IMG/VR virus record: IMGVR_UViG_3300046535_001359
Coordinates: 1-45,833 of that record
Origin: a virus
DNA length: 45,833 nt
Direction: 5' to 3' (one strand)
The notes beneath the pieces were generated by a model. It was not told the origin of the DNA and ran no database searches. It worked only from the letters and a program-made list of their open reading frames with translations. Below, piece after piece: positions 961 through 45,715 of the stretch. Positions within the stretch are counted from its first letter, which is position 1, and the number at the start of each line of letters is the position of its first letter. The translations under genes were made by a program, and so were the position numbers.

Positions 961-3900
961 GTGAAGCGAACCCGGCGGAGCATCCTGGCCGGCCTTGCCG
1001 CGAGCGTGCCTGGGATGGCTTGGGCCGCTCGGCGGAGCAAGACGCCGTTTGGAGTGCCGGTGCCGCCGCCGACGATTGTCTCGGTCACGCCGACAGCGGG
1101 CGGGTTCACGGCCGGCGCAGCAGGCGGAACGGTCATCGCGGCGGTAAACGTGCTTATGGCCCCGTCGGTGCCGACCTTCGCGACATTGGGCGGAACGATA
1201 ACGCTGACGGGAGCCGACGCAGCCAGCTTCACTCTGACCAACGGCGGATCGCTACCGTGCAACCTCGTGACGGTTGGGGTTCTCGGGGCTAATACCTACA
1301 GCATCAACTATGTGCCGCATCTCTCCGGGGCGGTCGGCGACGGGGTGGCGGTCCCGGTTTCAATCGTCGGTAGCGCCGGGGTCAAGGTCGCGACGATGAC
1401 CATCGTCAACACCTCCCCCTCGGTTACTCAGCCGTCCGGCTTCGTGACCCCGATGTTTGGCTGGTGCTTCAAGAAAGGCGACATTCCGAGCGGGACCGCG
1501 CCGATCTTCAAGAATGGCGGGCTGCCGCAGCCATATTCCTGGGGCATGCAGACCTATTGGAGCGACGGTAGCCTCAAGTTCGCCTCGTTTATGATGCTCT
1601 GTCTCGGCTCGACGATCGCCGGGGGTGCGTCGCTTCCGATCGAGGTATGGAGCGGCGGGACCGATCCGACGCCAAGTGTTCGGACGCTGACCGAGGTGTA
1701 CGCCGAGTCGATCGTCGCAAACGTGACCGGGGCCGGGACGAACTTCTTTCTGGTCGGCGCCCTCGGCGGCTGGCTCCGCAACGACGCCAACAACGTCGAG
1801 CAGGCGGTTTATCTGGATGGCGACGCCGGAAAAGTCTGGCGGGTACTGACCCACATGGCCCCGACGATCGGCGGGACCGCGCACGGCCAGATGGAGTGCT
1901 ATCACTATATCGCTGCGCTGACGGATTCGGATGGCGCTCTCGGTGGGTTCCGCTATCTGCCTTGCCTGACGCAACCGTGGTACGACGTTAACACCCCGGC
2001 GAAGGCGATCCGCTCGTTTACGACGGTTAACTGGCAGCATGGGGCGGGGCCGACGACGGTGCCGATACCACTCGGCGCAACGACGATCGACTTTACCCAC
2101 GCCGCGAGCACTACAGTCAATTGCACGACCCAGGTTGGCGGGGTAAATACGGTCAGCAATTACTACACCGGGTCATGGGATAATCTCTCATTGATGCCGT
2201 GTTATTTGACGACGACGGGAACACTGCCGACAGGGCTTAGCCTCGATAAGCTGTATTTCTGCCGGGGGACCAAGAACAGCACGACAGTCCAGTTCCAGGC
2301 AGCTAGTCCGAAATACGGCAGCGGCGCGGTGTCGATAACGAGCGCCGGAACTGGCACACATACGATTCATCCGCTGGTGACGCTGGGTCAGTTTGGCCGG
2401 ATCTTCATGCCGACCGTCGATGCGACGTGGAATTTCTTTCAAGGGTCGGGGTCGATCGCCGCCGACGCAACCGTGCGGACGACGATCGATCAGGTCTATT
2501 GGCACGGCGACGGCACCAACAAGCTGAGCCTGATCGTGCCGTGGGATCTGGCCCTCATTGGCCTCGCAACCGACACGCCGTACACCTACAACTGGAGTCC
2601 CGCCAGCATCGGTTCCTGCGCGATGGGTCGGGGCGGCGGCGGTGGCAATGCGGGACGCCCCGATCTTGGCGCGATGCCCGGATGGCAGGGGATCGACTTC
2701 CTACAGCAATCGGCCAACAGCGAGCGGCTAACTCGGATCAATGCTTTTGCCGGGGTGCACGACATGCACTGTCTGCGGAACAGTGCAAATTTTAATGTCG
2801 TGAACATGACGAATATCGCCCGTACCGGCATGACTAAATCCACCACAATCCGGTGGTATCCCGATACGGCTACCCCCGCCGGCACGTCCGGCATTACGGG
2901 CATACCGCAGACACCAGTTCTAAATACCAACTTCTACATGGATCAGGGCAATAACGCCCACAAGCCGGCATTCTTCTATTACGCATACCTGCGAACCGGT
3001 GAGCCGCAGTTCTTCGACTGCATGGTCGAAATGGCAATTGGCGGCACGATGGAGTTGCTCGCGACGAGCCGTAACCCGACCGCCGGCAATCCGGGAGCGT
3101 ATTTCGGGATATGCAGCCTGTGGGGCGGCAGCGGCACCGAGCGGGCGGTGGCCTGGGGGCACCGGGATTTGCAGACGGCGGCCAGCGTCATGCCGGCGAC
3201 GATGCCGGACGGCTCGCAGGCCAACCAATGCCTGATCGATATGGCTAATGACAGCCTCTCTGCCATGCTCGATCTCGGCGATAGCGTCTCGATCATGGGT
3301 AGCTATGCGGTCACGAACAGGCTGTGGTCATTTTACGATCCGGCTGGCGGCGGCTATACCAATTCTGGTTTCCAGCGCCCTTATGCCCAATCGCCAGCCA
3401 ATTTCGCGGCGGCGGCTCGTGAAAATGCCGACGCGATCACATGGCTCGGGCGCGAGAGGGATTGGAACGTCTATGTTGCCGCAACCTTTGGCTACTTTTG
3501 CACGACGAGTTATTTCGCCCACTACAGCACCAACATAGATATAAGCCTGATCGGCACTTTTCCGATTACCTCGGCCGCGATGTTTGCCTCGTCCTCACCC
3601 TGGCACGCATCTTACAGTTCTACCGATCCGCTGGGTTGGACCTTTACAAAGATTTATCCGAACAGCGGCGCGGTCCTTCGCGACGGGGACAAGTTTATCT
3701 TCAACACCGTCTCGTCATCGCCGCTTCCATCGAACTATGTGAAGGATACGGCGTACTATGCGATAGGAACAGTTGGCGATAAATGCAATCTGACTACTGT
3801 GGACGGCAACCCCCTGAATATCGTTGTCCCATCTAGTTCGGGAACCGTTACGGGGAATGCTGACTATAGCTGGTACGTGCCGGTTATAGACGTGCCGGCT

Positions 3901-4107
3901 GCGTTGGGGGCTGAGAACACCGGGTATCAAGGATCGGGATCGTATATGAGTTGGAAGCGTGCTTCGCAGCTCTTTATGACGGCGAACGGCGTGACGGGGT
4001 TGGCGGCCAGCATCACCGACGCGGGGATTCGCTCGGGGGCTACGGGGACGGATGCCGAGTTCCGGGCCGACACGCGCAACGCCTATCAGGATCATTTCGG
4101 CGCGTGA
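961..4107 (+). CDS. Large exported protein with Tat-like signal and PcRGLX/YetA-type polysaccharide-lyase-like region (1048 aa)
   Basis: The gene begins with GTG four bases after the preceding stop. The N-terminus (TRRSILAG, then a hydrophobic stretch ending AWA) is a twin-arginine signal with a cleavage site near residue 22. Residues about 30-155 form an Ig/cadherin-like beta domain. From about residue 160, FGWCFKKGDIPSG and the motif WSDGSLKFASFMM resemble the N-terminal RIFT-barrel domain of exo-rhamnogalacturonan-lyase-like (PcRGLX/YetA) proteins. The C-terminal half, with a region around YLRTGEPQFFDCMVEMA, fits an alpha/alpha-toroid lyase fold. The probable role is depolymerisation of a surface polysaccharide, either on the tail or secreted. 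The Tat-like signal is unexpected for a virion protein. The family assignment rests on motif memory, so it is moderate. Confidence 0.6.
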   Translation: MKRTRRSILAGLAASVPGMAWAARRSKTPFGVPVPPPTIVSVTPTAGGFTAGAAGGTVIAAVNVLMAPSVPTFATLGGTITLTGADAASFTLTNGGSLPCNLVTVGVLGANTYSINYVPHLSGAVGDGVAVPVSIVGSAGVKVATMTIVNTSPSVTQPSGFVTPMFGWCFKKGDIPSGTAPIFKNGGLPQPYSWGMQTYWSDGSLKFASFMMLCLGSTIAGGASLPIEVWSGGTDPTPSVRTLTEVYAESIVANVTGAGTNFFLVGALGGWLRNDANNVEQAVYLDGDAGKVWRVLTHMAPTIGGTAHGQMECYHYIAALTDSDGALGGFRYLPCLTQPWYDVNTPAKAIRSFTTVNWQHGAGPTTVPIPLGATTIDFTHAASTTVNCTTQVGGVNTVSNYYTGSWDNLSLMPCYLTTTGTLPTGLSLDKLYFCRGTKNSTTVQFQAASPKYGSGAVSITSAGTGTHTIHPLVTLGQFGRIFMPTVDATWNFFQGSGSIAADATVRTTIDQVYWHGDGTNKLSLIVPWDLALIGLATDTPYTYNWSPASIGSCAMGRGGGGGNAGRPDLGAMPGWQGIDFLQQSANSERLTRINAFAGVHDMHCLRNSANFNVVNMTNIARTGMTKSTTIRWYPDTATPAGTSGITGIPQTPVLNTNFYMDQGNNAHKPAFFYYAYLRTGEPQFFDCMVEMAIGGTMELLATSRNPTAGNPGAYFGICSLWGGSGTERAVAWGHRDLQTAASVMPATMPDGSQANQCLIDMANDSLSAMLDLGDSVSIMGSYAVTNRLWSFYDPAGGGYTNSGFQRPYAQSPANFAAAARENADAITWLGRERDWNVYVAATFGYFCTTSYFAHYSTNIDISLIGTFPITSAAMFASSSPWHASYSSTDPLGWTFTKIYPNSGAVLRDGDKFIFNTVSSSPLPSNYVKDTAYYAIGTVGDKCNLTTVDGNPLNIVVPSSSGTVTGNADYSWYVPVIDVPAALGAENTGYQGSGSYMSWKRASQLFMTANGVTGLAASITDAGIRSGATGTDAEFRADTRNAYQDHFGA

Positions 4108-4363
4108 CTTGGACTGGCAACTTGCCATTGCCTTCGGGGCGCTGGTGGTTGGTGCGATCGGGTTCCTGTCGCGGAGCCTCGACAAAGGGTTGTCGATCCG
4201 CGAACACGATGAGTTCCGCGCCGCGATGACCCGGGAGATCGTAGCCATACAAACCAGCTACCGACGCGAGTGTGACAGGCTGGAGGATCGGATCAAAGTG
4301 CTGGAGCAGACCCGCCCCACGACGGGTGAGATCGAGGCGCGGCTATCGGAAAGGAGACAATGA
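4052..4363 (+). CDS. Membrane-anchored coiled-coil protein, probable lysis accessory (spanin- or holin-like)
   Basis: One transmembrane helix (LAIAFGALVVGAIGFL) is followed by a charged alpha-helical region (REHDEFRAAMTREIVAIQ to the C-terminus) that should form a coiled coil. This is the architecture of inner-membrane spanin subunits and of some holin accessory proteins. It lies directly before the endolysin, overlapping it by four bases. ATG 4052 gives 103 aa but overlaps the preceding gene by 56 bases. TTG at 4109, two bases after the preceding stop, would put the membrane helix at the very N-terminus and is an equally reasonable start. No outer-membrane spanin partner was seen. Confidence 0.6.
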   Translation: MPSSGPTRATPIRIISARDLDWQLAIAFGALVVGAIGFLSRSLDKGLSIREHDEFRAAMTREIVAIQTSYRRECDRLEDRIKVLEQTRPTTGEIEARLSERRQ

Positions 4364-4890
4364 GCACCTTCAAAGGCACCGATAACTGCACCGACACGAT
4401 CCTCGATTTCATCCGGGGCGGCGTGCCGGAGCACAAGTCGGGCGAGGCCGGCGGCAACTACAACGCCTATTTTGGGCACGTGCACGCGACAGGCGACCTC
4501 GGTCTGATGACCCTCGATCAGGTCTATGCGTTTCAGGCATGGATGCTGAGCCGCGACCCGCGCTCGTCGGCTGTCGGCGGGTATCAGTTCTTGCGCCGCA
4601 CGCTGCAGAGCCTTCAGAAGGCGCTGAGCCTGCCGGGGACGACTCTGTTTACCCCCGCGCTGCAGGACCGGATGGCCGTCAGTCTGATGGTCGGACGCGG
4701 CTACAAGGCGTGGTGGCGCGGCGCGATGACCGATGCCGAGTTCGCGCACGGGCTTGCCTGCGAGTGGGCGAGCCTGCCGGATCCGCTGAACGGCGGCCGA
4801 TCGAAGTATGACGGCGATGGGGTCAACTCGACCGACACGACGCTCGATGCCGTCTATTCGCTGCTGCGCCGGGCGGCGGCGCTGAAATAG
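4360..4890 (+). CDS. Endolysin, lambda R-like muramidase/transglycosylase (176 aa)
   Basis: The protein has the layout of the lambda R / phage muramidase family. A candidate catalytic acid lies in PEHKSGEAGGNYNAYFG (Glu24 or Glu29), followed by the substrate-cleft signature SAVGGYQFL and a helical part ending in ACEWASLPDP, which parallels WASLPG in lambda R. It would cleave the glycan strands of peptidoglycan at the end of infection. No signal peptide or SAR helix is seen, so release through a holin is expected, and a holin-like gene follows. Family length is about 160-180 aa, so it is complete. It overlaps the upstream coiled-coil gene by 4 bases. Confidence 0.8.
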   Translation: MSTFKGTDNCTDTILDFIRGGVPEHKSGEAGGNYNAYFGHVHATGDLGLMTLDQVYAFQAWMLSRDPRSSAVGGYQFLRRTLQSLQKALSLPGTTLFTPALQDRMAVSLMVGRGYKAWWRGAMTDAEFAHGLACEWASLPDPLNGGRSKYDGDGVNSTDTTLDAVYSLLRRAAALK

Positions 4891-4899
4891 GAGAAGCGC

Positions 4900-5112
4900 A
4901 TGAACGGCATTTCACCCAAGGTCGCGGCCGGTGCCGGGGCTGCCGGCAGCTCGACGCCGCTATCGATCATCATCATCTGGATTCTCGGGCTGCTGAACGT
5001 GACGGTGCCGCCCGAGGTTGCCGCCTCCATCGGTGCGCTGATCGCCGCGCTTGGCTCTCTGTTTGCGGGATACATGGTTCCCCACCAACAGCCGGCTGGG
5101 CCGCCAGGATGA
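4900..5112 (+). CDS. Putative holin (70 aa, two hydrophobic segments)
   Basis: The protein is small and very hydrophobic. Segment one is LSIIIIWILGLLNVTV and segment two is IGALIAALGSLFAGYMV, joined by a short turn (PPEVAA), with a polar tail. This matches class II holins. The position directly after the endolysin and before the GNAT gene supports the call. An AGGAGAAG ribosome-binding site precedes ATG 4900. It ends overlapping the next gene (ATGA). The sequence itself carries no diagnostic motif, so the call rests on topology and context. Confidence 0.7.
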   Translation: MNGISPKVAAGAGAAGSSTPLSIIIIWILGLLNVTVPPEVAASIGALIAALGSLFAGYMVPHQQPAGPPG

Positions 5113-5582
5113 TCGTCTGCGGCTGGGAGAGTCTTGAGACGATCCTGGCCGAGCCCAACATCCGCGAGCTGCTGACGAGTTATTACCGGGAACTAAGCCC
5201 GATCAAGCACATCCCGCTCGACATCGACTGGCCCCGAATCTTCGCGTGGGAGCGGGAGTTCCTGTTCCGGGTGTGGACCTGTCGGGTAGACGGCACGCTC
5301 GCCGGGTTCATCACTTTCCTCGTCCAGCCGCACTTTCTGCACAAGACGACGCTGACCGCGGTCGATCATGGGCATTACCTCGCGCCGGCTTTCCGTGGTA
5401 ATGGCATGGTCGGCATGCGCATGTGGCGGTCCGCTGAGCGGGCATTGAAGGAGCTTGGCGTGCAGATGGCCTTTATCCACGACAATGCCCTGCGCCCGCT
5501 CTCGCCGTTCTTCCTCGCGATCGGGGCGCGGCCGTTCAGTTCTATGTGGCTGCTGGACCTGCGCGATGAAAATCATCATTGA
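5109..5582 (+). CDS. GNAT-family N-acetyltransferase (157 aa)
   Basis: The region around residues 88-105 (YLAPAFRGNGMVGMRM) carries the acetyl-CoA pyrophosphate-binding motif A of GNAT enzymes (R-G-N-G-x-x), followed by the expected helix (WRSAERALKELGV) and a beta strand (MAFIHDN). The N-terminal half is less conserved and probably binds the acceptor. The substrate is unknown; phage GNATs can modify host or virion proteins. It is embedded in the late operon between the holin and ejection-protein genes with 4-base and 17-base overlaps, so late expression is likely. Confidence 0.7.
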   Translation: MIVCGWESLETILAEPNIRELLTSYYRELSPIKHIPLDIDWPRIFAWEREFLFRVWTCRVDGTLAGFITFLVQPHFLHKTTLTAVDHGHYLAPAFRGNGMVGMRMWRSAERALKELGVQMAFIHDNALRPLSPFFLAIGARPFSSMWLLDLRDENHH

Positions 5583-31442: not shown

Positions 31443-32795
31443 ATGGCCCAGGGCACGACACCCAACCAAAGTAATCAGTATGCCGGCATTACCACGCGGC
31501 ATATTGAGCGCGAGGCGATGAAGCAGGTCCAGCGCACCGTCGTCCTCTACAATTTCGCGGACAAGAAAACGATCCCGCACGGTCGCGGCGTCCAGTGGGA
31601 GGCGTTCCGCTGGAACTATATGCGCCTGCCGCGCTTCCCGACCGCCGAGGGTGTGCCGCCGACCCCGAACTCTCTCGACTTCACCCAGGTCACCGGCACC
31701 GCTGTCCAGTGGGCGGGCCGCTGGGTCGGCACCGATGTCGCGACGATCACGACGCAGCAGGAACTGATGACAGCCGCCGGGAAGCAGCTCGGCATGCAGG
31801 TCGCCCAGATGAAGGACCGCAACGGCTTCGTCAACCTGATGTCGGGCACCCAGGTCAATTACGCTAACTCGGTCGGCGCCCGCGCCTCGCTCGCCGCGAC
31901 CGACGTGCTGAATCCGACCGATGTCAACCGGACGTATGCCAACCTCTATAACCTCGGCGCTCCGCTGTGGAACGGGCAGACCGGCGAGACCGTCGAGCGC
32001 GGCATCGACTACACGCAGCGGCAGGCCGGGAAGACGATCCCAGGGGTCGAGCACTACGTCGCCATCGGCTCGATCTTCCCGCTCGAAGACCTCCGCAACA
32101 ACCCGACCGTCGTCACGGCTTGGAGCCGCAGCGATGTCGACAAGCTCTACATCAACCAGATGGGCTATTGGGGCGGCATCACGTTCGTCTCGACGAACCT
32201 CGCCCCGACCTTTACCGGCGTCGCCCAGGTCAACGGCGCGAACGGCGTCGGCTCGCTTGGCACCGCCACATACACGATCCAAGTGACGGGCTGGGACGAC
32301 CAGAATTTCTACGAGAGCCGCATCTACCAACTCTCGGCCGACATCTCGGTAACGACCGGCGGCATCACCCTGACCACCCCCTCGACGACCGGCTTTACCT
32401 ATGCGGTTTATGTCGGGGTCGGTTCCGGTGCGCTGCCGACGCAACTCGGCCTCACCAGCTCCGGCCCGTCGGGCGGATCGTTCCAGGGCCAGGCGATCGA
32501 GATCCCGCCATCGACCGTGGTCACGATCACCGGGCTCGGCGCGCAGATGATCCCGCCGGCCGCGCCGGCGACGGATGTGACGGTCTACCCAATCTTCATC
32601 TTTGGTCGCGAAGCCTTTGCCTGCCTCAAACTCGAAGGCATCCAGTGGCTGCGCCCGACCGGAGCCGATAAGGCGGATCAGCTCGACCAACTCCGGGTGA
32701 TTGGTTGGAAGATGATGGAGGGGTGGACGATTTTGGATCAACGCAAAATGGCGCGCATCGAGTGTTCTGCTTCAAACAGCGGCGCCTTCGCGTAA
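31443..32795 (+). CDS. Major capsid protein, N4-gp56-type, with an inserted beta domain (450 aa)
   Basis: The start is ATG 31443, with GGAGG ahead of it. The N-terminal part (YAGITTRHIEREAMKQVQ, then FADKKTIPHGRGVQWEAFRW) and the region QELMTAAGKQLGMQVAQM resemble the N4-gp56-family HK97-fold major capsid protein. Residues about 258-382 form an insertion rich in Thr, Gly and Ser (an Ig-like block), after which the fold resumes with FIFGREAFACLKLEGIQW and KMMEGWTILDQRKMARIE. The insert would face outwards. Confidence 0.8.
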   Translation: MAQGTTPNQSNQYAGITTRHIEREAMKQVQRTVVLYNFADKKTIPHGRGVQWEAFRWNYMRLPRFPTAEGVPPTPNSLDFTQVTGTAVQWAGRWVGTDVATITTQQELMTAAGKQLGMQVAQMKDRNGFVNLMSGTQVNYANSVGARASLAATDVLNPTDVNRTYANLYNLGAPLWNGQTGETVERGIDYTQRQAGKTIPGVEHYVAIGSIFPLEDLRNNPTVVTAWSRSDVDKLYINQMGYWGGITFVSTNLAPTFTGVAQVNGANGVGSLGTATYTIQVTGWDDQNFYESRIYQLSADISVTTGGITLTTPSTTGFTYAVYVGVGSGALPTQLGLTSSGPSGGSFQGQAIEIPPSTVVTITGLGAQMIPPAAPATDVTVYPIFIFGREAFACLKLEGIQWLRPTGADKADQLDQLRVIGWKMMEGWTILDQRKMARIECSASNSGAFA

Positions 32796-36865: not shown

Positions 36866-39133
36866 GTGCCGCTGAGAAACGCGCGCCCGATTTCCTGGCG
36901 ACCCAAGGGGCTGACTGACGCGAAAGACGGCACCAACGCCTTTGCCGGGGCGATGAAGACGCTCCAGAACCTCATCCCCGACCGGGCCAATACCGACGTT
37001 TGGGTGCCGCGCCCCGCTGCGACCGAGAAGACCAACTTCGCCGGGGGTCCGCCTGCCGCCGGCTTTATCTCGGCCCGACTCGTCGTTGGCGATATCGAGT
37101 ACGGCATGGTCGCGTCCTCGACGACCCCCGGTTTCGACGAGCCGTATGCCTACGATATAGCGAACGGGGTGTTCCTCCCGGTCTCGGGGATCACCGGCAG
37201 CAACGTCCCAGCCTCGCCGCCGACGAGCGGCTTTTGGACGCCGCCGATCATGGCGCAGGTCGGGAACCGAATCATCGTGACGCATCCGGGGTTTCCTGGG
37301 GGTGAGGTGTCTTTCGGCTGGTTTGATTTATCGGGCGCGCAGCTCGGCGCGGTTGGGGACACGGTTAGCGGCTCTCGGTACATTACCGGCAATCCGAATC
37401 TGCTGGGCGTGCAGCCCGGTCTGGCGGTTTCCGGCACGGGCATCCCGGCCGGCACCGTCGTCGTCAACACCCACCCCTACCCGATCGGCTTCGATTTTGT
37501 TGGCGACACCCACACCTCGACGGTGATCGACGGCATCGCCGACACAAGCGGCCTCAAGGCCACGCTGTTCATTTCCGGGCTCGGCATTCTGTCCGGCACC
37601 AGGATCGTTGCTGTTCACGCAAATTCGATCGACATCAGCCCCGCGACGACATCGAGCGTCGCGGGTGGGACAATTCAGTGCTACGGCGAGAATGTCCTTC
37701 AGGTCAGTCCGCCGGCGGATATTCAGGGCACGACGAACAGCAACACGACGCTCTCTCCCACAACCCCGAATATAACGGGTGGGGCTCCGCTGGGGGCCGC
37801 TGTTGGGCAGGGCATCTCTGGCCCCGGTCTTCTGCCGTTGACGACAATCACCTCGGTTGGCGTCAGCGCATTGGGTCTCAGTCAGGCGGCGACCATAACT
37901 GCGGTCAATGACTTCAAGTTTGAAGGCGCGACGATCGTTCTGTCCGCCAACGCGACCGCGACGAATGACGGGGTGTCTTTCACGATCACCGGGGGAACAG
38001 CGGCAGCGCCGCTGTGGGGGGCCGGGAATACCAATAACTTCTCGCTGCCGAGTGTTCCCGTTGGGGTGGCGCAGATGAATGGGCGGGCATGGTATGCCTT
38101 GGGCCGCGATGGGATCGTCTTCAGCGATAGCGGTTCGCCGTGCTCGGTCTCGAACACGCTCGGGGTCCAGGCGCTGACGACCAACGACGGGCTCGGTGTG
38201 ACGGCGATCGCGCCGCTCCTCCTGTCGGCCCCGATCACCGGCGGCATCGTCCAGGCGCTGATCGCCTTCGAGGAAGACGTAAAGATGCAGCAGATTACCG
38301 GCGACCAGGCGACCGGCAATCTCGCGATGAACCTCCTGCCGGTCGCCACGGGCACCCACTCGCCGCTGTCGATAGTGCCGACCGAGGCGGGTCTGGCCTT
38401 CATCTCGCCGACCGGGCTGCGATTCGTCACGTTCAACGGCACCGTCACGCCGCCGGTCGGGGCCTACGGCCAGGGCATCGTCGAGCCGTTCATCAATGCG
38501 ACCGAACCCTCGCGCGTCTGCGCCGCGGCGAATGCCGGGGTGTTGCGGATCACGACGCAGAACGGATTGGCTGATGGCGATTCGCAGGAATACTGGCTCG
38601 ACCTGACCAAGCAAATCTGGCACGGCCCGCACACCTTCCCGGCGAGCCTCATCCAGCCGTGGCGGACATCGTTCCTCATCGCGCCCGTTGGGATCGAGCA
38701 TTCGCTGTGGCAGAGCGATGCCTATGTGACCACCGCCTCGGTCTATGTCGAGAACGGCGATCAGATGCTGTGGGTGGAGGAGAGCGTGCTGCTGCCGGAC
38801 AACGCGGTGATGGCGATGAATGCGATGGTCCAGGCGTCGATCATGTTCAGCCTGGCCCCGCCGCTGGCGATCGAGGTGATGGCGCTCGACGAGGACCGCG
38901 GCATTATCGATCAGGCGTTCGCGCAAGGGGTGGCGAGCGCGATGCGCCAGCGTTCCCTCGATTGGAGCGAGCCCGTCGTCTTCAAGCAGATGAGCTTCTT
39001 GGTGAAGGGGCAGAGCGACGCGAGCCTGCGCCTCGGCAACCTCTATATGAACATTGCGCCGGTGAATTATCTTAACGACGGCGGCCGTCCCAATCTGGTG
39101 AAGGTCGATGCGGGTGGGGTGGTTGTTCCATGA
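36866..39133 (+). CDS. Tail nozzle / tail tubular protein B-like (755 aa)
   Basis: The gene starts GTG 36866, three bases after the adaptor stop. The N-terminus NAFAGAMKTLQNLIPDRANT is a pattern I recall from nozzle proteins (gp12/gp10-type). Beta-propeller-like repeats follow. Three inserted beta units resemble the adaptor insert (GTGIPAGTVVVNTH, ISGLGILSGTRIVAVHANS, ISGPGLLPLTTITSVG). The C-terminal part contains DLTKQIWHGPHTFPASLIQP and a domain that would meet the tail spike. It forms the end of the short tail. Confidence 0.7.
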   Translation: MPLRNARPISWRPKGLTDAKDGTNAFAGAMKTLQNLIPDRANTDVWVPRPAATEKTNFAGGPPAAGFISARLVVGDIEYGMVASSTTPGFDEPYAYDIANGVFLPVSGITGSNVPASPPTSGFWTPPIMAQVGNRIIVTHPGFPGGEVSFGWFDLSGAQLGAVGDTVSGSRYITGNPNLLGVQPGLAVSGTGIPAGTVVVNTHPYPIGFDFVGDTHTSTVIDGIADTSGLKATLFISGLGILSGTRIVAVHANSIDISPATTSSVAGGTIQCYGENVLQVSPPADIQGTTNSNTTLSPTTPNITGGAPLGAAVGQGISGPGLLPLTTITSVGVSALGLSQAATITAVNDFKFEGATIVLSANATATNDGVSFTITGGTAAAPLWGAGNTNNFSLPSVPVGVAQMNGRAWYALGRDGIVFSDSGSPCSVSNTLGVQALTTNDGLGVTAIAPLLLSAPITGGIVQALIAFEEDVKMQQITGDQATGNLAMNLLPVATGTHSPLSIVPTEAGLAFISPTGLRFVTFNGTVTPPVGAYGQGIVEPFINATEPSRVCAAANAGVLRITTQNGLADGDSQEYWLDLTKQIWHGPHTFPASLIQPWRTSFLIAPVGIEHSLWQSDAYVTTASVYVENGDQMLWVEESVLLPDNAVMAMNAMVQASIMFSLAPPLAIEVMALDEDRGIIDQAFAQGVASAMRQRSLDWSEPVVFKQMSFLVKGQSDASLRLGNLYMNIAPVNYLNDGGRPNLVKVDAGGVVVP

Positions 39134-41502
39134 AAAAGCCGGTCGTCTTGATCTTCGGGATGCTGGCGTTCGGCGCGCAGCCGGCGCTCGCCGACGCCTT
39201 CAGCGACCAGTACACCGGCATGGTCGGGCGCATTCCGCTGCTGACTTCGCCCTATCGCGCGACCGATTACCTGTCGGCGGTGCGCAACGGCATCCCATAC
39301 AAGGTGCCCGTCTTCGATCAGGGCACGTCGATCCCTCCTAATCCGACCGATCCGCAGTTCGGCGCAAAGTGCGACATTCAGGTCTTTGATGGCGGGGCGA
39401 CATGGAGCGCCGGAGGGACGGCGTTTACCCCAGGCAACAGCATCACGCCGACGAGCGCGAATGTCGGCAAGAAACTCGTCGTCCTCGGGGCCGGAACCGG
39501 CGGCAATTCCTATGCCGGGACGATCACCGGCATCAGCGGCACGGCATGGACCGTGACTCCTGCGCTGACATACGCGAGCGGACTGACGCAGCCTTATGGC
39601 GTTGTCGTCGCTACGCCGCAGTCTGGAGGTGGAAGTTACGCGCCGGGCGACACGATCACGCTCACCGGCGGCACGATTACCGGCGGCGCGCAGCCGATCC
39701 TCACCGTCAAATATACGAAGGTGGAGAGCGCGACCATCGCTGCGGCCGGGGCGGGAGGCACCAATGGCACCCGCATAGTGACTGGCACAACCGGCCGTGG
39801 TCAGTATTTCCAGGCGAACGTAACGGTTGCCGGCGGCATCATTACAGCGGTCAACTCGATTGTGGCCGATGCCTCGGGGAAAACTGGCGGCCAATACTTT
39901 ACGAATCCAACCAGTTTGACGAACGAGCCGGTGAATGGCGCTGGTCTTACCGGAGCTCAGTTGAGCCTCAAGATGGGCGTGGCGCAGGCCATTCCGACTT
40001 CGCCTGGTGGGTGGAGCGTCGCTCCGTCGAACCCAGTGGCTCAAGGGTCAACCTCGGGCAGCGGCACCGGGGCAACCTTCACGGTCACGCAGAGTTCCGT
40101 GGCGGTTAATCTCAAGCCGGGTTGGTGGTACTTCGGCACCGACGACGCGACGGCGTTGCAGGCCGGCTTTGATTGGGCCGGAACCAATCAGGCGACGCTT
40201 CAGATTTTGCCAAAGCAATGGTGCGGCACCGGCACGATGCTGACGATGACCGATAATTTCGCGACGGTGGCGGGTAACGGCAGCGGCATCACCGAGGCTA
40301 ATCGTAACTTTGCCAACATGCCTTACAATTCTGGCCTGTTCTGGCTCGGAAACGGCACTGATCCGATGATCGAGATCGCGACGCCAGATGGAGCCTCGCG
40401 CATCCTTGGTAACTCGGTGCAGCGAATGGCTCTGATCTGCGGGAACCGGGCCGGGTATGCGCTGAAATTCAAGACGGCTTATACCGGGCAGTTCCCCGAC
40501 ATTTATACCCAGCAATGCACCAACGCGGCGATCGAGACGAACACCAACACCAACGCGATCATCCCGACCGATACGCAGAATATCGTCTTCTCGGATGGGT
40601 ATATTAACCAAGAGGCCAGTAATGGGGTTGGCATACGCCTGACTGGAGACCCATCTGTCGGCACGGGCGATAGTAGCTTCCTTCTATTCAATAATATGCA
40701 TGGCTGGGTCGGTAACGATACGTGGGCAGAACTGGTGTATGCCGACACGAATACATTTTATAATTCGGGGGCATATCATCCTAGTTTTTCAGGGGCGCTT
40801 TACGACTGGGATTTATCGGGGATACCGACATTTTACACCTACAGTAATCACTTTATCCAGAGTGTCGGGATCATGATCGTGCGGGGGCAGGACTCTTCCG
40901 GCACGGCACAGGCGTCGATATTCAATACCTACAGCATCACGGGCGATCCGTACCTAGCCCCGGTCGAGGGGCTTAGCGCGCAAATCGTCTGGAACGACCC
41001 GCGCCAGGAAAATAGTAAGACACTGACCGGGAAGCTCATCACCGGACTCCCGGCGGGTGGCGGTCAACTCTTTGCGATCAGGAACATCATCGATAATTCG
41101 ACCTCTGGTCTCTACGAGGCGGGGGATATGACGATCGGCGGGGGCGTTCCTGCTGCTCTTTATTTCAACCTAAAATTTGATTCAAACCTTGGGTTCGTTC
41201 ATACCTCTACCGGCTCATCGTTCGCACTACGGAACGACAACTCAGCGATTTTGGACCTATTGGGAGCGCCAACCGGGGCCGGAGGCACGGCGGCCGTGCT
41301 GACGGGCATATGGAGAGCTACGGCGGGGGGTGGGGTACAGATCGGCTCGCCATCAGGCGGCGACAAGGGCGCGGATTCGCTGAACGTGAAGGGTGCAATC
41401 TGGTCTGACGGCACGCAGGGCATAGCGGCTTGCACCGTCGTTACGGCGGCAGCAACGATCACGATCAAGAATGGTCTTATCACAGCATTCACGGGATGCT
41501 AA
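39130..41502 (+). CDS. Tail-spike-like protein with N-terminal export signal (790 aa)
   Basis: The gene overlaps the nozzle gene by four bases, so it should be the tail spike. A signal-like N-terminus (MKKPVVLIFGMLAFGAQPA, cut near ALA|DAF) is atypical for a virion protein. Residues about 100-330 hold Gly-rich beta repeats (for example APGDTITLTGGTITGGAQP). The following region (residues 340-600) resembles a right-handed beta-helix with short repeats. The C-terminus ends in KNGLITAFTGC with a free-standing last cysteine. Mature cysteines number six. It would bind or cut a surface polysaccharide. Confidence 0.6.
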   Translation: MKKPVVLIFGMLAFGAQPALADAFSDQYTGMVGRIPLLTSPYRATDYLSAVRNGIPYKVPVFDQGTSIPPNPTDPQFGAKCDIQVFDGGATWSAGGTAFTPGNSITPTSANVGKKLVVLGAGTGGNSYAGTITGISGTAWTVTPALTYASGLTQPYGVVVATPQSGGGSYAPGDTITLTGGTITGGAQPILTVKYTKVESATIAAAGAGGTNGTRIVTGTTGRGQYFQANVTVAGGIITAVNSIVADASGKTGGQYFTNPTSLTNEPVNGAGLTGAQLSLKMGVAQAIPTSPGGWSVAPSNPVAQGSTSGSGTGATFTVTQSSVAVNLKPGWWYFGTDDATALQAGFDWAGTNQATLQILPKQWCGTGTMLTMTDNFATVAGNGSGITEANRNFANMPYNSGLFWLGNGTDPMIEIATPDGASRILGNSVQRMALICGNRAGYALKFKTAYTGQFPDIYTQQCTNAAIETNTNTNAIIPTDTQNIVFSDGYINQEASNGVGIRLTGDPSVGTGDSSFLLFNNMHGWVGNDTWAELVYADTNTFYNSGAYHPSFSGALYDWDLSGIPTFYTYSNHFIQSVGIMIVRGQDSSGTAQASIFNTYSITGDPYLAPVEGLSAQIVWNDPRQENSKTLTGKLITGLPAGGGQLFAIRNIIDNSTSGLYEAGDMTIGGGVPAALYFNLKFDSNLGFVHTSTGSSFALRNDNSAILDLLGAPTGAGGTAAVLTGIWRATAGGGVQIGSPSGGDKGADSLNVKGAIWSDGTQGIAACTVVTAAATITIKNGLITAFTGC

Positions 41503-41532
41503 CCCGACCGCCTAAATCCATGTTATAGCCGC

Positions 41533-42693
41533 TCAACCTCGGAGGACATGATGACCCGCACCTCGATCAGTTCCGGCCTCGTCGGCCTCTTTCTCGGCGG
41601 CGCGCTGTCGCTTGGCGTGATGGCTGTAGCCGCGCCGATCACCGGCCCGGTCGACCCTGGCAGCATCGTCGCCAACATCAATCGCTATATCCTTAACTGG
41701 ATGGGCTTTACCAACGACGGCGAACTCACCCTCGCGGGCGGCAATGCCTTTGCTCCGCTCGGCGTCGTCGCCACCGCCATGAGCTCGGTCGGCCCGGTCG
41801 GGTCGCACACGACCGTCCAGCGGTGGATGGTGGTCATCAACGCGGCAGGCACGGTCGGATTCGTCCCGGTATTCTGAGGCGCGGTAGCCGAGGACGGCGA
41901 CGAAGGGTATCCACGTCGCCGGAATGCCGGATATGAACAGCCCCTGCACAAACCAGGCGGCGAGGAACGGTCGGTAATCCGGCGCTGAGCGCCACGCTGC
42001 GACGAGCAGCCACGTCCCCGCGACGATAGCCGGGACGCCGCCCCAGATCAGCACGTCGAGCGGGATCGAGTAGAAGTGGTTGAGCCCGCCGACATTGATG
42101 AAGCCTTGGCCCCAGCCGAGGGCGAGGCGTTGCTGGGCAATCTGCCATCCGAGACGCCATAGACCTATTCGTGCCTCCTCGTTGCCGGGGCGGATCAGCA
42201 AGACGGCGATCATTATCGCGATGGAGCTGATACTCGCGGCTACTCGCTGCCACTTTCTGCCGCTCGCTGCCAAGACGAATAGACCCGCGCCGAGGGCGAG
42301 GAGCGCGCCGCGGCTCTGGCTGAGCGCGAGGGAGAGGAGGTTGGCTGCCACCGGGAGGGTGCGGGCTGACAATGCCAAGGTCTTTCCCCCTGACCCGGCA
42401 ACAGCCAGGAAGAACATTAACACGGCATAGGCCCCGAGGTAATTGGGTGAATTGAACGGACCCCATGCTCGGACCCCGGAATTGATTATCGCCTGGCCTG
42501 CCGCCATCGCCGCGATGCCCACAGAGAGCCACAGGAGGGCCGTCAGAAGCCGGTTCCAGCTGCGCGGCCCCAACCATCTGTAGAGCAGAAACAGCACCAC
42601 AGCGGACCCCACGGCGCCGAAATCGTGCCCTGGACCGAGGATGTCGGCGAGAGCCAGGACGGCGGCCAGGGTGAGGAAGGCGGCAGCAATCAT
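41533..42693 (-). CDS. O-antigen polymerase/ligase-like membrane protein, reverse strand (386 aa, end doubtful)
   Basis: The N-terminal 271 residues contain about eight hydrophobic segments (for example MIAAAFLTLAAVLALADILG, GAYAVLMFFLAVAG, SSIAIMIAVLLIRP). They include the Wzy/WaaL-type pattern NSPNYLGAYAV, ALSQSRGALLALGAGLFVLA and LGWGQGFINVGGLNHFYSIP, then VLIWGGVPAIVAG. Such proteins join O-antigen units or transfer them to lipid A. It lies antisense to the flanking tail-module genes. The last 115 codons (after GYRASEYRDES) are read antisense to the 41548-41877 gene and look artefactual, so the real end may be near 41880. ATG 42693 is chosen; 42738 is possible. It would modify the host surface. 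Confidence 0.55.
   Translation of the reverse strand: MIAAAFLTLAAVLALADILGPGHDFGAVGSAVVLFLLYRWLGPRSWNRLLTALLWLSVGIAAMAAGQAIINSGVRAWGPFNSPNYLGAYAVLMFFLAVAGSGGKTLALSARTLPVAANLLSLALSQSRGALLALGAGLFVLAASGRKWQRVAASISSIAIMIAVLLIRPGNEEARIGLWRLGWQIAQQRLALGWGQGFINVGGLNHFYSIPLDVLIWGGVPAIVAGTWLLVAAWRSAPDYRPFLAAWFVQGLFISGIPATWIPFVAVLGYRASEYRDESDRACRVDDHHPPLDGRVRPDRADRAHGGGDDAERSKGIAAREGEFAVVGKAHPVKDIAIDVGDDAARVDRAGDRRGYSHHAKRQRAAEKEADEAGTDRGAGHHVLRG
41548..41877 (+). CDS. Small exported or membrane protein (109 aa)
   Basis: ATG 41548 or 41551 with GGAGGA ribosome-binding site. A hydrophobic N-terminus (SSGLVGLFLGGALSLGVMAV) acts as a signal or anchor; the remainder is beta-like (GELTLAGGNAFAPLGVV, TVQRWMVVINAAGTVGF). 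It has no cysteine. The opposite strand carries the open C-terminal end of the O-antigen-polymerase-like gene. Function unknown. Confidence 0.55.
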   Translation: MMTRTSISSGLVGLFLGGALSLGVMAVAAPITGPVDPGSIVANINRYILNWMGFTNDGELTLAGGNAFAPLGVVATAMSSVGPVGSHTTVQRWMVVINAAGTVGFVPVF

Positions 42694-42728
42694 TTGACGG
42701 ATGCTCCCTTTGCCCGCATACCGCTCGG

Positions 42729-42935
42729 ATGAACACATCGAGTTCGTATGCCGGGATCGGCGGGGGGCGCAAGGTGGCGAAAAAGGAGAGTGCGTCGCAA
42801 AAGAAAGTCCACCGCGTCATGACCGAATTTAAAGAGGGTAAGCTGCACAGCGGCAGCAAGAAGGGCCCCAAGGTCAAGAGCCGTAAACAGGCCATCGCGA
42901 TTGGCCTTTCGGAAGCACGCAAGAGGGGGCGCTGA
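42729..42935 (+). CDS. DUF6496-like basic small protein (68 aa)
   Basis: A lysine-rich protein with GKLHSGSKKGPKVKSRKQAI then GLSEARKRGR at the C-terminus, the signature of DUF6496-type phage proteins (S-K-K-G-x-x-V-x-S-R-K-Q-A-I-A-I-x-L-S-E-A). The N-terminal half is also basic. It could bind nucleic acid; family function is unknown. It overlaps the next gene by one base. Confidence 0.7.
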   Translation: MNTSSSYAGIGGGRKVAKKESASQKKVHRVMTEFKEGKLHSGSKKGPKVKSRKQAIAIGLSEARKRGR

Positions 42936-43324
42936 TGTACGATTGGCACGATGGCCTCGATTGGCCGACCACGGGCCTGGGCCGCGCCCTGATGTGGGCG
43001 GGGATGAAGGCGCTCCTCTTTGGCGGCTTTCTCCTCATCGCCGGGATCAGTTTCGCCTACGCCCAATCAAAGCCGCAGGGCAACGGCACGCTCAACCAGG
43101 CGATCCAGGCGCGTCTGCTCGTCAAGAGCGACTCCACGACGTATCAGTTTACCCGCGGGCTTTTCATCGGCGACGCTACCGCCTGCAATGTTGCCATCCT
43201 TTTTGAGAAGGATACGGCGCCGGTCACTTTCACCAATGTCCAATCGGGGGCGCTTCTGCCGTTTTCCGTCACGAAGCTGATGAGCTCGGGAACATCATGC
43301 ACCGCCGTTTACGGACTCTGGTAG
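42935..43324 (+). CDS. Small exported protein (129 aa)
   Basis: Inside the first 45 residues a signal-like segment (MKALLFGGFLLIAGISFAYA, cut before QSKP) follows a short polar stretch. The true start may be that internal ATG at about residue 24. The mature part has two cysteines (DATACNVA, GTSCTAVY) and a beta-like pattern (APVTFTNVQSGALLPFSVTK). No family is recognised. The end overlaps the next gene by 28 bases. Confidence 0.55.
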   Translation: MYDWHDGLDWPTTGLGRALMWAGMKALLFGGFLLIAGISFAYAQSKPQGNGTLNQAIQARLLVKSDSTTYQFTRGLFIGDATACNVAILFEKDTAPVTFTNVQSGALLPFSVTKLMSSGTSCTAVYGLW

Positions 43325-43512
43325 TCCTCGCCCTGCTGCTGCTTTCGGGCGGCGCGTTGGCGCAGGGCTTCGGCTTCGGCATGGGGTTGGACGATCTTTC
43401 CCGCCGGGTCGCTGCCGGCCCGCCTGCCGTCATCGGCAATCTCTTGCTGGTCGGCGGCGGCAATATCCTGCTGGTCGGGGGAGGCAATTTGCAATGCGTC
43501 GGTTCCTGCTGA
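43297..43512 (+). CDS. Tiny exported protein with LLVGGGN repeat (71 aa)
   Basis: A signal peptide (HRRLRTLVVLALLLLSGGAL, cut after ALA|QG) precedes a mature part of about 49 residues. Its end carries the tandem repeat NLLLVGGGNILLVGGGNLQC and a closing cysteine (VGSC). The two cysteines could form a disulfide loop of five residues. The gene overlaps both neighbours, so translation is coupled. Function unknown. Confidence 0.6.
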   Translation: MHRRLRTLVVLALLLLSGGALAQGFGFGMGLDDLSRRVAAGPPAVIGNLLLVGGGNILLVGGGNLQCVGSC

Positions 43513-44921
43513 TCGCGGCGCTTGCCGCATTTCTGCCCGCCACGGCGCACGCCGACTCCGACGTGCCGACCCTGGCGGCGGGCACGTCGCTGACCTCTGC
43601 CGCAATGTATCTCGCCAACGCTGGGGCGAACAACAACAAGCTGGGCCTTACGACGTCGGTGTTTGACATCTCTGCGGGCGCCTTGACCTTGAAGGCGGGC
43701 GGCGTCAGCGACGCGATGTTAGCCAGCACGTTTCTTAAAACCAGCGCTCTCGGCACGGGTGTCGCGACAGCGCTGGGGGTCAATGTCGGGACCGCCGGAG
43801 CGTTCTTGAAGAATAACGGCGACGTGCTCAGCGGCACATATAGCGGCGATTTTGCGCTGAGCGGCACCACGATCCAGTTGACCGGGATTGCGCTGGATAC
43901 CCAGGACCGTTGCTTAGGGCTGACCGGGGCGGACGTAATCGTGTACTCGACCGGGGCCTGCGGGAGCGGCGGCGGGGGCGGAACAATCACCAGCGTCACC
44001 GGAACGAACGGTGTCACAGCGTCCACCACAACCGGGGCCGTCACGGTCAGCCTGACGACCCCGTGCCCGGTCGGGATCGACACCTGGGATGGCACGACCG
44101 ACAAGACGATCTCGGCATCAACCGGGTTGCTGTACACGACGCCTGGAACGCCGGTTGGCGCGGCGCGGGTGCTGACCTTGCCGGCAGTCTCGACTTGGGT
44201 GCTGAGCTGCCCGCTGACGGTGGTCGATCAGGGAGCGATCTTCAATTCGTCCTTTGCTGTTACGCCGACCAGGGCCGCCTCGGATACGATTGACGGGGCG
44301 AACACCGGGACGGACCTTGGGTGCTCGCATCAGGCGGTGATCTATAAGGCAACTGTTGCCGGGAAATGGGCGACCGTCAGCCCGCCAAGCCTTTGCACCG
44401 ATGCGGCGGTTTCGAATCAGTTTGTCACGGCGGTTCCCGATACCGGAATCATCACACGGGCGCAGCCGGCCTTTACGAACATCTCCGGGGTGGCAACGGC
44501 GGCCCAGCTTCCGGCGGCGACGACCTCGGCACAGGGCGCGGCGCTCTTACACAACGTGCCGTTCTCAATGGGCTGGAACAGCGCGACCAACCCCGACGGC
44601 AACTTCGTCGCGGTCGTAACCCAGGCGTCGAGGATAACCGCGATCAAGGGACGAATAGGGCCTGCGGTCGGAACGACGGCGACGATCATCGTCAAGAAAG
44701 CCGCCAGCGGCGTTGCCTGTGCAGCCTCCGGGACGGCGCTCCACAGCGGCAGCTTTGATGCTAACGGGACGGCGAATACGGTGCAAACGCTGACCTTGGT
44801 GGGCGGCGCGACGGACGATCTGGCGGCGGGTGATACGGTCTGCTTCTCGACGGCGGACGGTGCTGCGTTCCTGGGCGGGGTCGGCAAGGGCGTGATCTCG
44901 ATCGACTGGGCGCCGCTATGA
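43494..44921 (+). CDS. Exported tail-fibre-like protein (475 aa)
   Basis: A signal peptide (MRRFLLIAALAAFLPATAHA) is followed by tail-fibre-like repeats rich in Gly, Thr, Ser and Ala (SGTYSGDFALSGTTIQLTGI, then GGTITSVTGTNGVTASTTTG). The mature part has eight cysteines, in contrast to the cysteine-poor capsid protein. The C-terminal domain (AIKGRIGPAVGTTATIIVKK, then a SxDxxxDxxxGDTVCFS-like element) may bind host structures. It overlaps its neighbours. Confidence 0.6.
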   Translation: MRRFLLIAALAAFLPATAHADSDVPTLAAGTSLTSAAMYLANAGANNNKLGLTTSVFDISAGALTLKAGGVSDAMLASTFLKTSALGTGVATALGVNVGTAGAFLKNNGDVLSGTYSGDFALSGTTIQLTGIALDTQDRCLGLTGADVIVYSTGACGSGGGGGTITSVTGTNGVTASTTTGAVTVSLTTPCPVGIDTWDGTTDKTISASTGLLYTTPGTPVGAARVLTLPAVSTWVLSCPLTVVDQGAIFNSSFAVTPTRAASDTIDGANTGTDLGCSHQAVIYKATVAGKWATVSPPSLCTDAAVSNQFVTAVPDTGIITRAQPAFTNISGVATAAQLPAATTSAQGAALLHNVPFSMGWNSATNPDGNFVAVVTQASRITAIKGRIGPAVGTTATIIVKKAASGVACAASGTALHSGSFDANGTANTVQTLTLVGGATDDLAAGDTVCFSTADGAAFLGGVGKGVISIDWAPL

Positions 44922-45079
44922 TCCGGGTGGTGCTGGTCGTCGCGTTGATGGCCCTGGGCGCGGCATCGGCTCATGCGTGGCTTATCCAGGGCCCGGGCGG
45001 CTCAGCTACGCCGGCATGTTCTGACAACATCACCGGAGCTGTTAATTCTAATGGTAATACTGCCCTTACCTGCCCATAG
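44918..45079 (+). CDS. Tiny exported peptide (53 aa)
   Basis: The gene overlaps the preceding stop by ATGA. A signal-like N-terminus (MIRVVLVVALMALGAASAHA) leaves a mature peptide of about 33 residues with two cysteines (ATPACSDN and LTCP) that could form one disulfide. The next gene starts 12 bases on with TAGGAG as ribosome-binding site. No family is recognised. It is too short for the usual ORF length cutoffs. Confidence 0.6.
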   Translation: MIRVVLVVALMALGAASAHAWLIQGPGGSATPACSDNITGAVNSNGNTALTCP

Positions 45080-45091
45080 GAGCGTTGAGTC

Positions 45092-45715
45092 GTGAAATAC
45101 AGAACCATCCTTGCCACTGCGATAGCGGTAATCGTGCCCGCTCTTGCACTAGGGCAGGCAACGCATTCGATCGGAACTGCCAACACTACGCTTGGCATAC
45201 TCAAACTGTTCGGTTCGACCTCGGGAGACCTTAGTATCAAGCCGCCTGCGGTGGCAGGAACTGCGAGCACGATTGTTTTGCCTAGCGGTTCCACGGACTT
45301 TACCGGTACGGTTGGCGTGGTGCAGCAAGCAACGACCGGAGCCGCCATCACGGTCGGAACGGTGCCGCAGACGCAAGTTACTGCCGTCACCTTCGCGACC
45401 GGCACGACGCACACGTTGGGAACTGGCGGGATAACCAGTGAAATCTGGGAATGCACCGGAGCATGCACCGTGACGCCACCGACGCCGGCAGCGGGATATC
45501 AGTTTCTCGTCCGCAATACTCCGGGTACTACGGGGGTCATCACTATAGCGGGGGTTTCCAGCGTTCTCTATGAGAAAACCGATTACTCCGGCTATGGAAC
45601 GGCAAATACATCGGCGACCTCGGGCGGGGCGTTGGGCGATAAAATCTGTCTCATTGGTCACGACGCAACTCACTATGACGTGGGTTGCTTCAACGGCACA
45701 TGGGCGGTGCCATGA
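45092..45715 (+). CDS. Exported beta-rich protein (207 aa)
   Basis: GTG 45092 starts a signal-like N-terminus (MKYRTILATAIAVIVPALAL, cut near G|QAT). The mature part resembles phage tail or spike beta repeats (GDLSIKPPAVAGTASTIVLP) and has four cysteines (WECTGAC, ICLIG, GCFNG). The end overlaps the next gene by ATGA. It may coat or bind the cell surface; no family is assigned. Confidence 0.6.
   Translation: MKYRTILATAIAVIVPALALGQATHSIGTANTTLGILKLFGSTSGDLSIKPPAVAGTASTIVLPSGSTDFTGTVGVVQQATTGAAITVGTVPQTQVTAVTFATGTTHTLGTGGITSEIWECTGACTVTPPTPAAGYQFLVRNTPGTTGVITIAGVSSVLYEKTDYSGYGTANTSATSGGALGDKICLIGHDATHYDVGCFNGTWAVP

Follow-up and report, generated by a model that had tools for sequence, protein, structure and literature searches.

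The minus strand of the window, by which we mean the whole stretch of 45,833 nt analysed here (a 45.8-kb IMG/VR virus record), carries a gene for a compact membrane protein of 275 amino acids (41869..42693) with a predicted Wzy/WaaL-type fold. Our computational analysis finds the gene in a conserved antisense position among its relatives, with two arginines kept and with Tyr in place of the catalytic His of WaaL. Its size of about 275 rather than about 400 amino acids and the invariant Tyr at the His position set it apart from WaaL and from phage D3 Wzy-beta. We take surface remodelling as the leading explanation: with roughly an even chance of being correct, this reduced, His-less accessory protein acts on the lipid-linked surface glycan of the host during infection.

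The open reading frame extends over 41533–42738 and encodes 401 amino acids from its outermost ATG, or 386 from the one at 42693; the probability that a 401-codon open frame arises by chance, given the local base composition, is about 4e-5. We place the start at ATG 42693, because the relatives align from there and because one of them (L072) has an in-frame stop immediately 5′ of the corresponding codon. A ribosome-site-like sequence, AAAGGGAG, lies about 10–17 nt before this ATG, and a spacer of 35 bp (42694..42728) separates the gene from a divergently oriented small basic gene. A sigma-70 promoter scan of this spacer gave no match, and no clear common promoter was seen among the relatives in the DNA upstream of the Wzy-like gene. 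The codon model used to score coding signal had been trained on ten long genes from the plus strand of the window. The minus frame from 42693 to 41878 reached +0.196 bits per codon, compared with a maximum of 0.047 among 210 equally long antisense control windows and a mean of 0.322 for sense windows, 7% of which score below the value of the core; coding signal was absent in all plus-strand frames over the same interval. The GC content of the 1-kb windows over the gene (0.614 and 0.636) is within the range of the remaining window; the comparison of codon use and GC content with the neighbours, proposed by the first-pass annotation, yields a codon score above all antisense controls and a native composition. 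As that annotation had observed, every long coding gene on either side lies on the plus strand. Only part of the open reading frame is a gene; this real gene reaches from ATG 42693 to about 41869. That the entire frame is a chance opening antisense to other genes is exceedingly improbable. Long antisense frames do arise in high-GC genomes, and the last 336 nt are exactly such a case, but the core is conserved with a dN/dS of about 0.5 or less, has a confident AlphaFold model of the WaaL type and lacks any competing plus-strand signal; its codon score, which exceeds all 210 antisense controls, led us to reject this explanation for the core.

The remaining part of the frame (41533..41868, minus strand, ending with the TGA at 41535–41533) is a C-terminal read-through of non-conserved length. 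Beyond about 41878 the minus frame has a codon score of −0.28, with GC3 of 0.59 and GC1 of 0.84, and the plus-strand gene over the same stretch (41548..41877) scores +0.41 with GC3 of 0.84. This convergent gene encodes a small protein of 109 amino acids with a signal-peptide-like start and has homologues at seven related loci (L069–L072, L074, L075 and L082). Given the negative minus-strand score and the positive score of the plus gene, the last third is no more than an open frame opposite a real gene, in agreement with the earlier remark that it reads antisense through 41548–41877. In the window the frame continues for 345 nt from 41877 and spans all of the partner gene. At the 13 other loci readable at the 3′ end, two near-duplicates among them, the conserved core invariably stops at the 3′ end of the convergent gene and the antisense read-on measures 84 to 342 nt. 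In most cases the partner encodes a small exported protein whose end resembles that of the window (HTTVQRW.VV...); exceptions are L069, where the partner gene weakly matches a methyltransferase, and L073, where it is yet another gene. The likeness of the tails between relatives (DD..P.LDGRVR...) is an antisense shadow of the partner gene. The proposed foreign insertion with loss of its own stop did not hold: we reject a lost stop because convergent antisense overlap is general across the family, and an insertion because the GC content is in range and the place is conserved in relatives. A further late-strand polytopic membrane protein of 290–320 amino acids (LLWALLLASTIPTAVPVILVAGFDF...HFLIDGEVWRRGRAVV), which has no Pfam match, was seen just before the convergent partner in L070 (10417–11388) and L073, and upstream of the 41548-like gene in L071 and L072.

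Single-sequence searches with the window protein found no homologue in INPHARED, IMG/VR, GTDB, PLSDB or PDB (the last with phmmer), and searches of Pfam, PHROGs and NCBIfam with this protein alone gave no family assignment. The family relation surfaced only after relatives had been gathered through the major capsid protein, which identified 44 related IMG/VR loci. A Wzy-like homologue was present in 9 of the 23 searched records of these loci (E ≤ 2e-31), and wherever a homologue shared a piece with capsid or tail genes it was opposite to them in strand. With profile searches the total rose to 20 other IMG/VR records, with identities down to 37–38%; two pattern scans of GTDB, one from the single sequence and one from the alignment, revealed no bacterial relative. 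Pairwise dN/dS values of the core were 0.29–0.52 by a simple Nei–Gojobori count in which many pairs are near synonymous saturation, indicating purifying, not very strong, selection. The gene is accessory: four related genomes (G017, G018, G020 and G021) are without it and keep the flanking module with its exported tail proteins. In one of them (G018, locus L078), the neighbouring DUF6496 gene begins 3 bp downstream of an exported gene with a weak N-terminal resemblance to 41548–41877, an arrangement that looks like the empty site of the Wzy-like gene.

At the family level, the assignment of the protein to the Wzy/WaaL superfamily appears clear from sequence profiles. Wzy_C (PF04932) is matched by 13 of 14 family members (best E = 1.5e-7), two homologues being at or above the cut-off of 31.7 bits (31.7 and 32.8 bits). 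In the PF04932 search suggested by the first-pass annotation, the window protein alone stays below this cut-off, with 15.5 bits in a one-genome search and 9.7 bits with hmmscan. NCBIfam profiles matched as well, IctB (TIGR00947) in 11 of 14 members (best 2e-6) and PEP_O_lig_1 (TIGR03097), a putative O-glycosylation ligase, in 7 of 14 (best 3.2e-5); both profiles belong to the O-antigen polymerase/ligase superfamily. Against PDB sequences, the family profile placed the WaaL O-antigen ligase 7tpg at the top (E = 0.0084). No PHROG matched the family at a meaningful level. PF15864 (PglL_A), provided that the Pfam copy includes it, was absent among the Pfam matches of all 14 members, and no SEDS family appeared among them either.

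AlphaFold with a 14-member alignment predicted 11 helices (pLDDT 80.6, pTM 0.81), whereas with 9 less diverse sequences the model was useless (pLDDT 46.5). Foldseek against PDB returned WaaL 7tpg first (E = 8.4e-4, probability 1.00) and two RodA (SEDS) structures second and third (probability 1.00), all other listed matches being at or below 0.2; the viral structure library gave no match at E ≤ 0.001. The model thus predicts a WaaL/SEDS-type GT-C_B fold, and fold and profiles agree with the earlier description of a Wzy/WaaL-like membrane protein. Within the core, R128 and R175 are present in at least 90% of members. R175 aligns with R265 of 7tpg, the loop Arg before the W..G.Q helix, and R128, in an RG motif, aligns with R191 in a segment that does not score positively by itself. 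The FYS of the family is aligned to AHN of 7tpg, so that Y208, invariant in 14 of 14 members, would occupy the position of the His, and G219, eleven residues on, would complete a counterpart of the HX10G motif (Y208-X10-G219); the His itself is absent. Both Pseudomonas aeruginosa WaaL and D3 Wzy-beta require this His (PMC4815439), and PglL has a conserved counterpart of it (PMC3643930). Loss of the His makes standard ligase chemistry unlikely, yet counts against a standard ligase and not against any polymerase, since P. aeruginosa Wzy-alpha has RX10G tracts instead of the His motif (PMC4815439). A His-less protein of this kind may act as a variant transferase or, as a decoy, bind the lipid-linked glycan; the kept arginines would fit both.

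The gene lies inside a tail module with exported neighbours, as first described. Upstream is a protein of 790 amino acids (39130..41502, plus strand) with a coding signal and a signal-peptide-like start, and downstream on the same strand are four genes with such starts (43297–43512, 43494–44921, 44918–45079 and 45092–45715). By script, signal-peptide-like starts were found at 39130, 41548, 43297, 43494, 44918 and 45092, and additionally at 961 (961–4107), and in none of the other window genes tested. Relatives likewise have exported tail-module proteins, whether or not they carry the Wzy-like gene; in a tailed phage, export of proteins resembling tail fibres or spikes is unusual. The divergent neighbour is a small basic DUF6496 protein of 68 amino acids (42729..42935, plus strand; PF20106, E = 4.4e-16), found in the same place in L069, L072 and L073, and also in L078, which is without the Wzy-like gene. 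Its N-terminus resembles the start of the major capsid protein (31443–32795; MNTSSSYAG..., MNTSGNFAGTIGRKR versus NTSSNFAGAIART, NQSNQYAGITTR). Such capsid-like N-termini occur on two different small basic bodies, and were also seen in L092 (5578–5796), L095 (5725–5946), L101 (5737–5940), L050 and L037; the shared start could be a capsid-targeting or common N-terminal arm. The next gene encodes a head-spike-base-like protein of 129 amino acids (42935..43324, plus strand; NF048002, E = 2.4e-8, above cut-off; phrog_12296) with an N-terminus that by eye is hydrophobic and signal-like. NF048002 is a spike-base family that takes its name from the Rhodobacter GTA gene Rcc01079, and the match hints at an alphaproteobacterial host. 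An endolysin-like gene lies at 4360–4890, adjoined by a GNAT acetyltransferase gene at 5109–5582 (PF00583, E = 2.5e-7). On the assumption of circular permutation, the endolysin-like gene would come after the tail module; the assumption is helped by a related genome (G015) in which the capsid and Wzy-like genes are near opposite ends of the record.

The closest parallel in layout is wzy(beta) of Pseudomonas phage D3, which that phage encodes on its minus strand, with tail fibre and endolysin genes on either side; for the window, the position in the tail module is observed and the proximity to a lysis gene assumes circular permutation. D3 Wzy-beta, an O-antigen beta-polymerase, is likewise a phage-borne membrane protein of the Wzy_C superfamily, and together with Iap it confers superinfection resistance (PMC4815439). 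It differs in having 386 amino acids and an essential His in an HX9-10G motif, compared with about 275 and a Tyr in the window core, and D3 is temperate with an integrase, whereas none was found in 11 records from the group of the window. Direct comparison detected no similarity between the family and D3 Wzy-beta. The O-antigen ligase family protein VG_p25 of VarioGold is also phage-borne and on the minus strand near lysis genes (PMC9658991); it has 411 amino acids, belongs to a temperate phage and is 31% identical to the D3/phi297 proteins, to which the window family has no detectable resemblance. WaaL (7tpg/7tpj), the best match by fold and profile, with both arginines kept in the family, has 403–413 amino acids and is thus about 130 residues longer. 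For WzyPh1 of an Acinetobacter baumannii prophage, a phage-encoded Wzy acting on the host glycan, a change in the host glycan linkage has been demonstrated (PMC9241936); it is likened to the window protein by its description.

On the surface-glycan reading, the polytopic protein would sit in the host inner membrane, where the kept arginines would bind the undecaprenyl-diphosphate-linked surface glycan of the host. Polymerisation or ligation of the glycan would be changed or blocked during infection, either by a variant transferase activity or by a decoy competing with host Wzy/WaaL, and superinfecting phage or released progeny would meet an altered surface. The step from fold to effect is drawn from the superinfection resistance in D3 and the glycan change by WzyPh1. 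This reading is favoured by the gene and the selection on it, the family, the fold, R128/R175, the D3 layout, the WzyPh1 precedent and the accessory status. Against it are the sub-threshold Pfam score of the window protein alone, the lost His, the lack of detectable direct similarity to D3 Wzy-beta, and the little time available in a virulent phage for a changed surface to form.

Among the alternatives, a PglL-like protein O-oligosaccharyltransferase that transfers the host lipid-linked glycan to the exported tail or spike proteins of the phage in the periplasm is unlikely. Wzy_C also includes PglL, pglL genes often adjoin those of their target proteins (PMC3643930), and the window gene is likewise next to exported proteins, six genes in 39130–45715 plus 961–4107 having signal-peptide-like starts; the putative O-glycosylation ligase profile matched by half of the members points the same way. 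In contrast to PglL, however, the family has neither a PF15864 match (0 of 14) nor the His, and the exported proteins persist in relatives without the Wzy-like gene. In a more specific form, which we consider very unlikely, a WaaL-fold oligosaccharyltransferase with Tyr at the active-site His position would decorate the Sec-exported tail or spike proteins of a virulent phage; virion parts would then be glycosylated outside the cytoplasm, in the periplasm, before joining the particles at lysis. Another alternative is interference with cell-wall synthesis, in which a SEDS-like decoy would engage lipid II or a RodA/FtsW partner and thereby impede division or leave the wall weaker ahead of lysis; the RodA matches fit this, as does the endolysin-like gene that would come after the tail module under circular permutation. 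Such a role is decidedly unlikely, with WaaL first by both fold and profile and Wzy_C, not a SEDS family, recovered among the members. The proposal of the first-pass annotation, lysogenic serotype conversion of the classical prophage type, is improbable to a similar degree. The layout is that of D3 and VarioGold, but searches for tyrosine integrase (PF00589) and serine recombinase (PF00239) gave no match in 11 records, mostly near full length though some may be fragments, and were positive in control genomes, which makes lysogenic conversion unlikely; in addition, the two GTDB pattern scans found no relative in any bacterial genome. The phage of the window is apparently virulent and from soil, and integrase-independent lysogeny is possible for these phages.

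In the literature consulted, phage-borne Wzy proteins belong to temperate phages, where they act in lysogenic conversion. A selected, small, His-less version in a group without a detectable integrase suggests that interference with surface glycan may pay within a single lytic cycle. The family also offers a compact natural variant for asking what role the WaaL His has and what minimal fold is needed.
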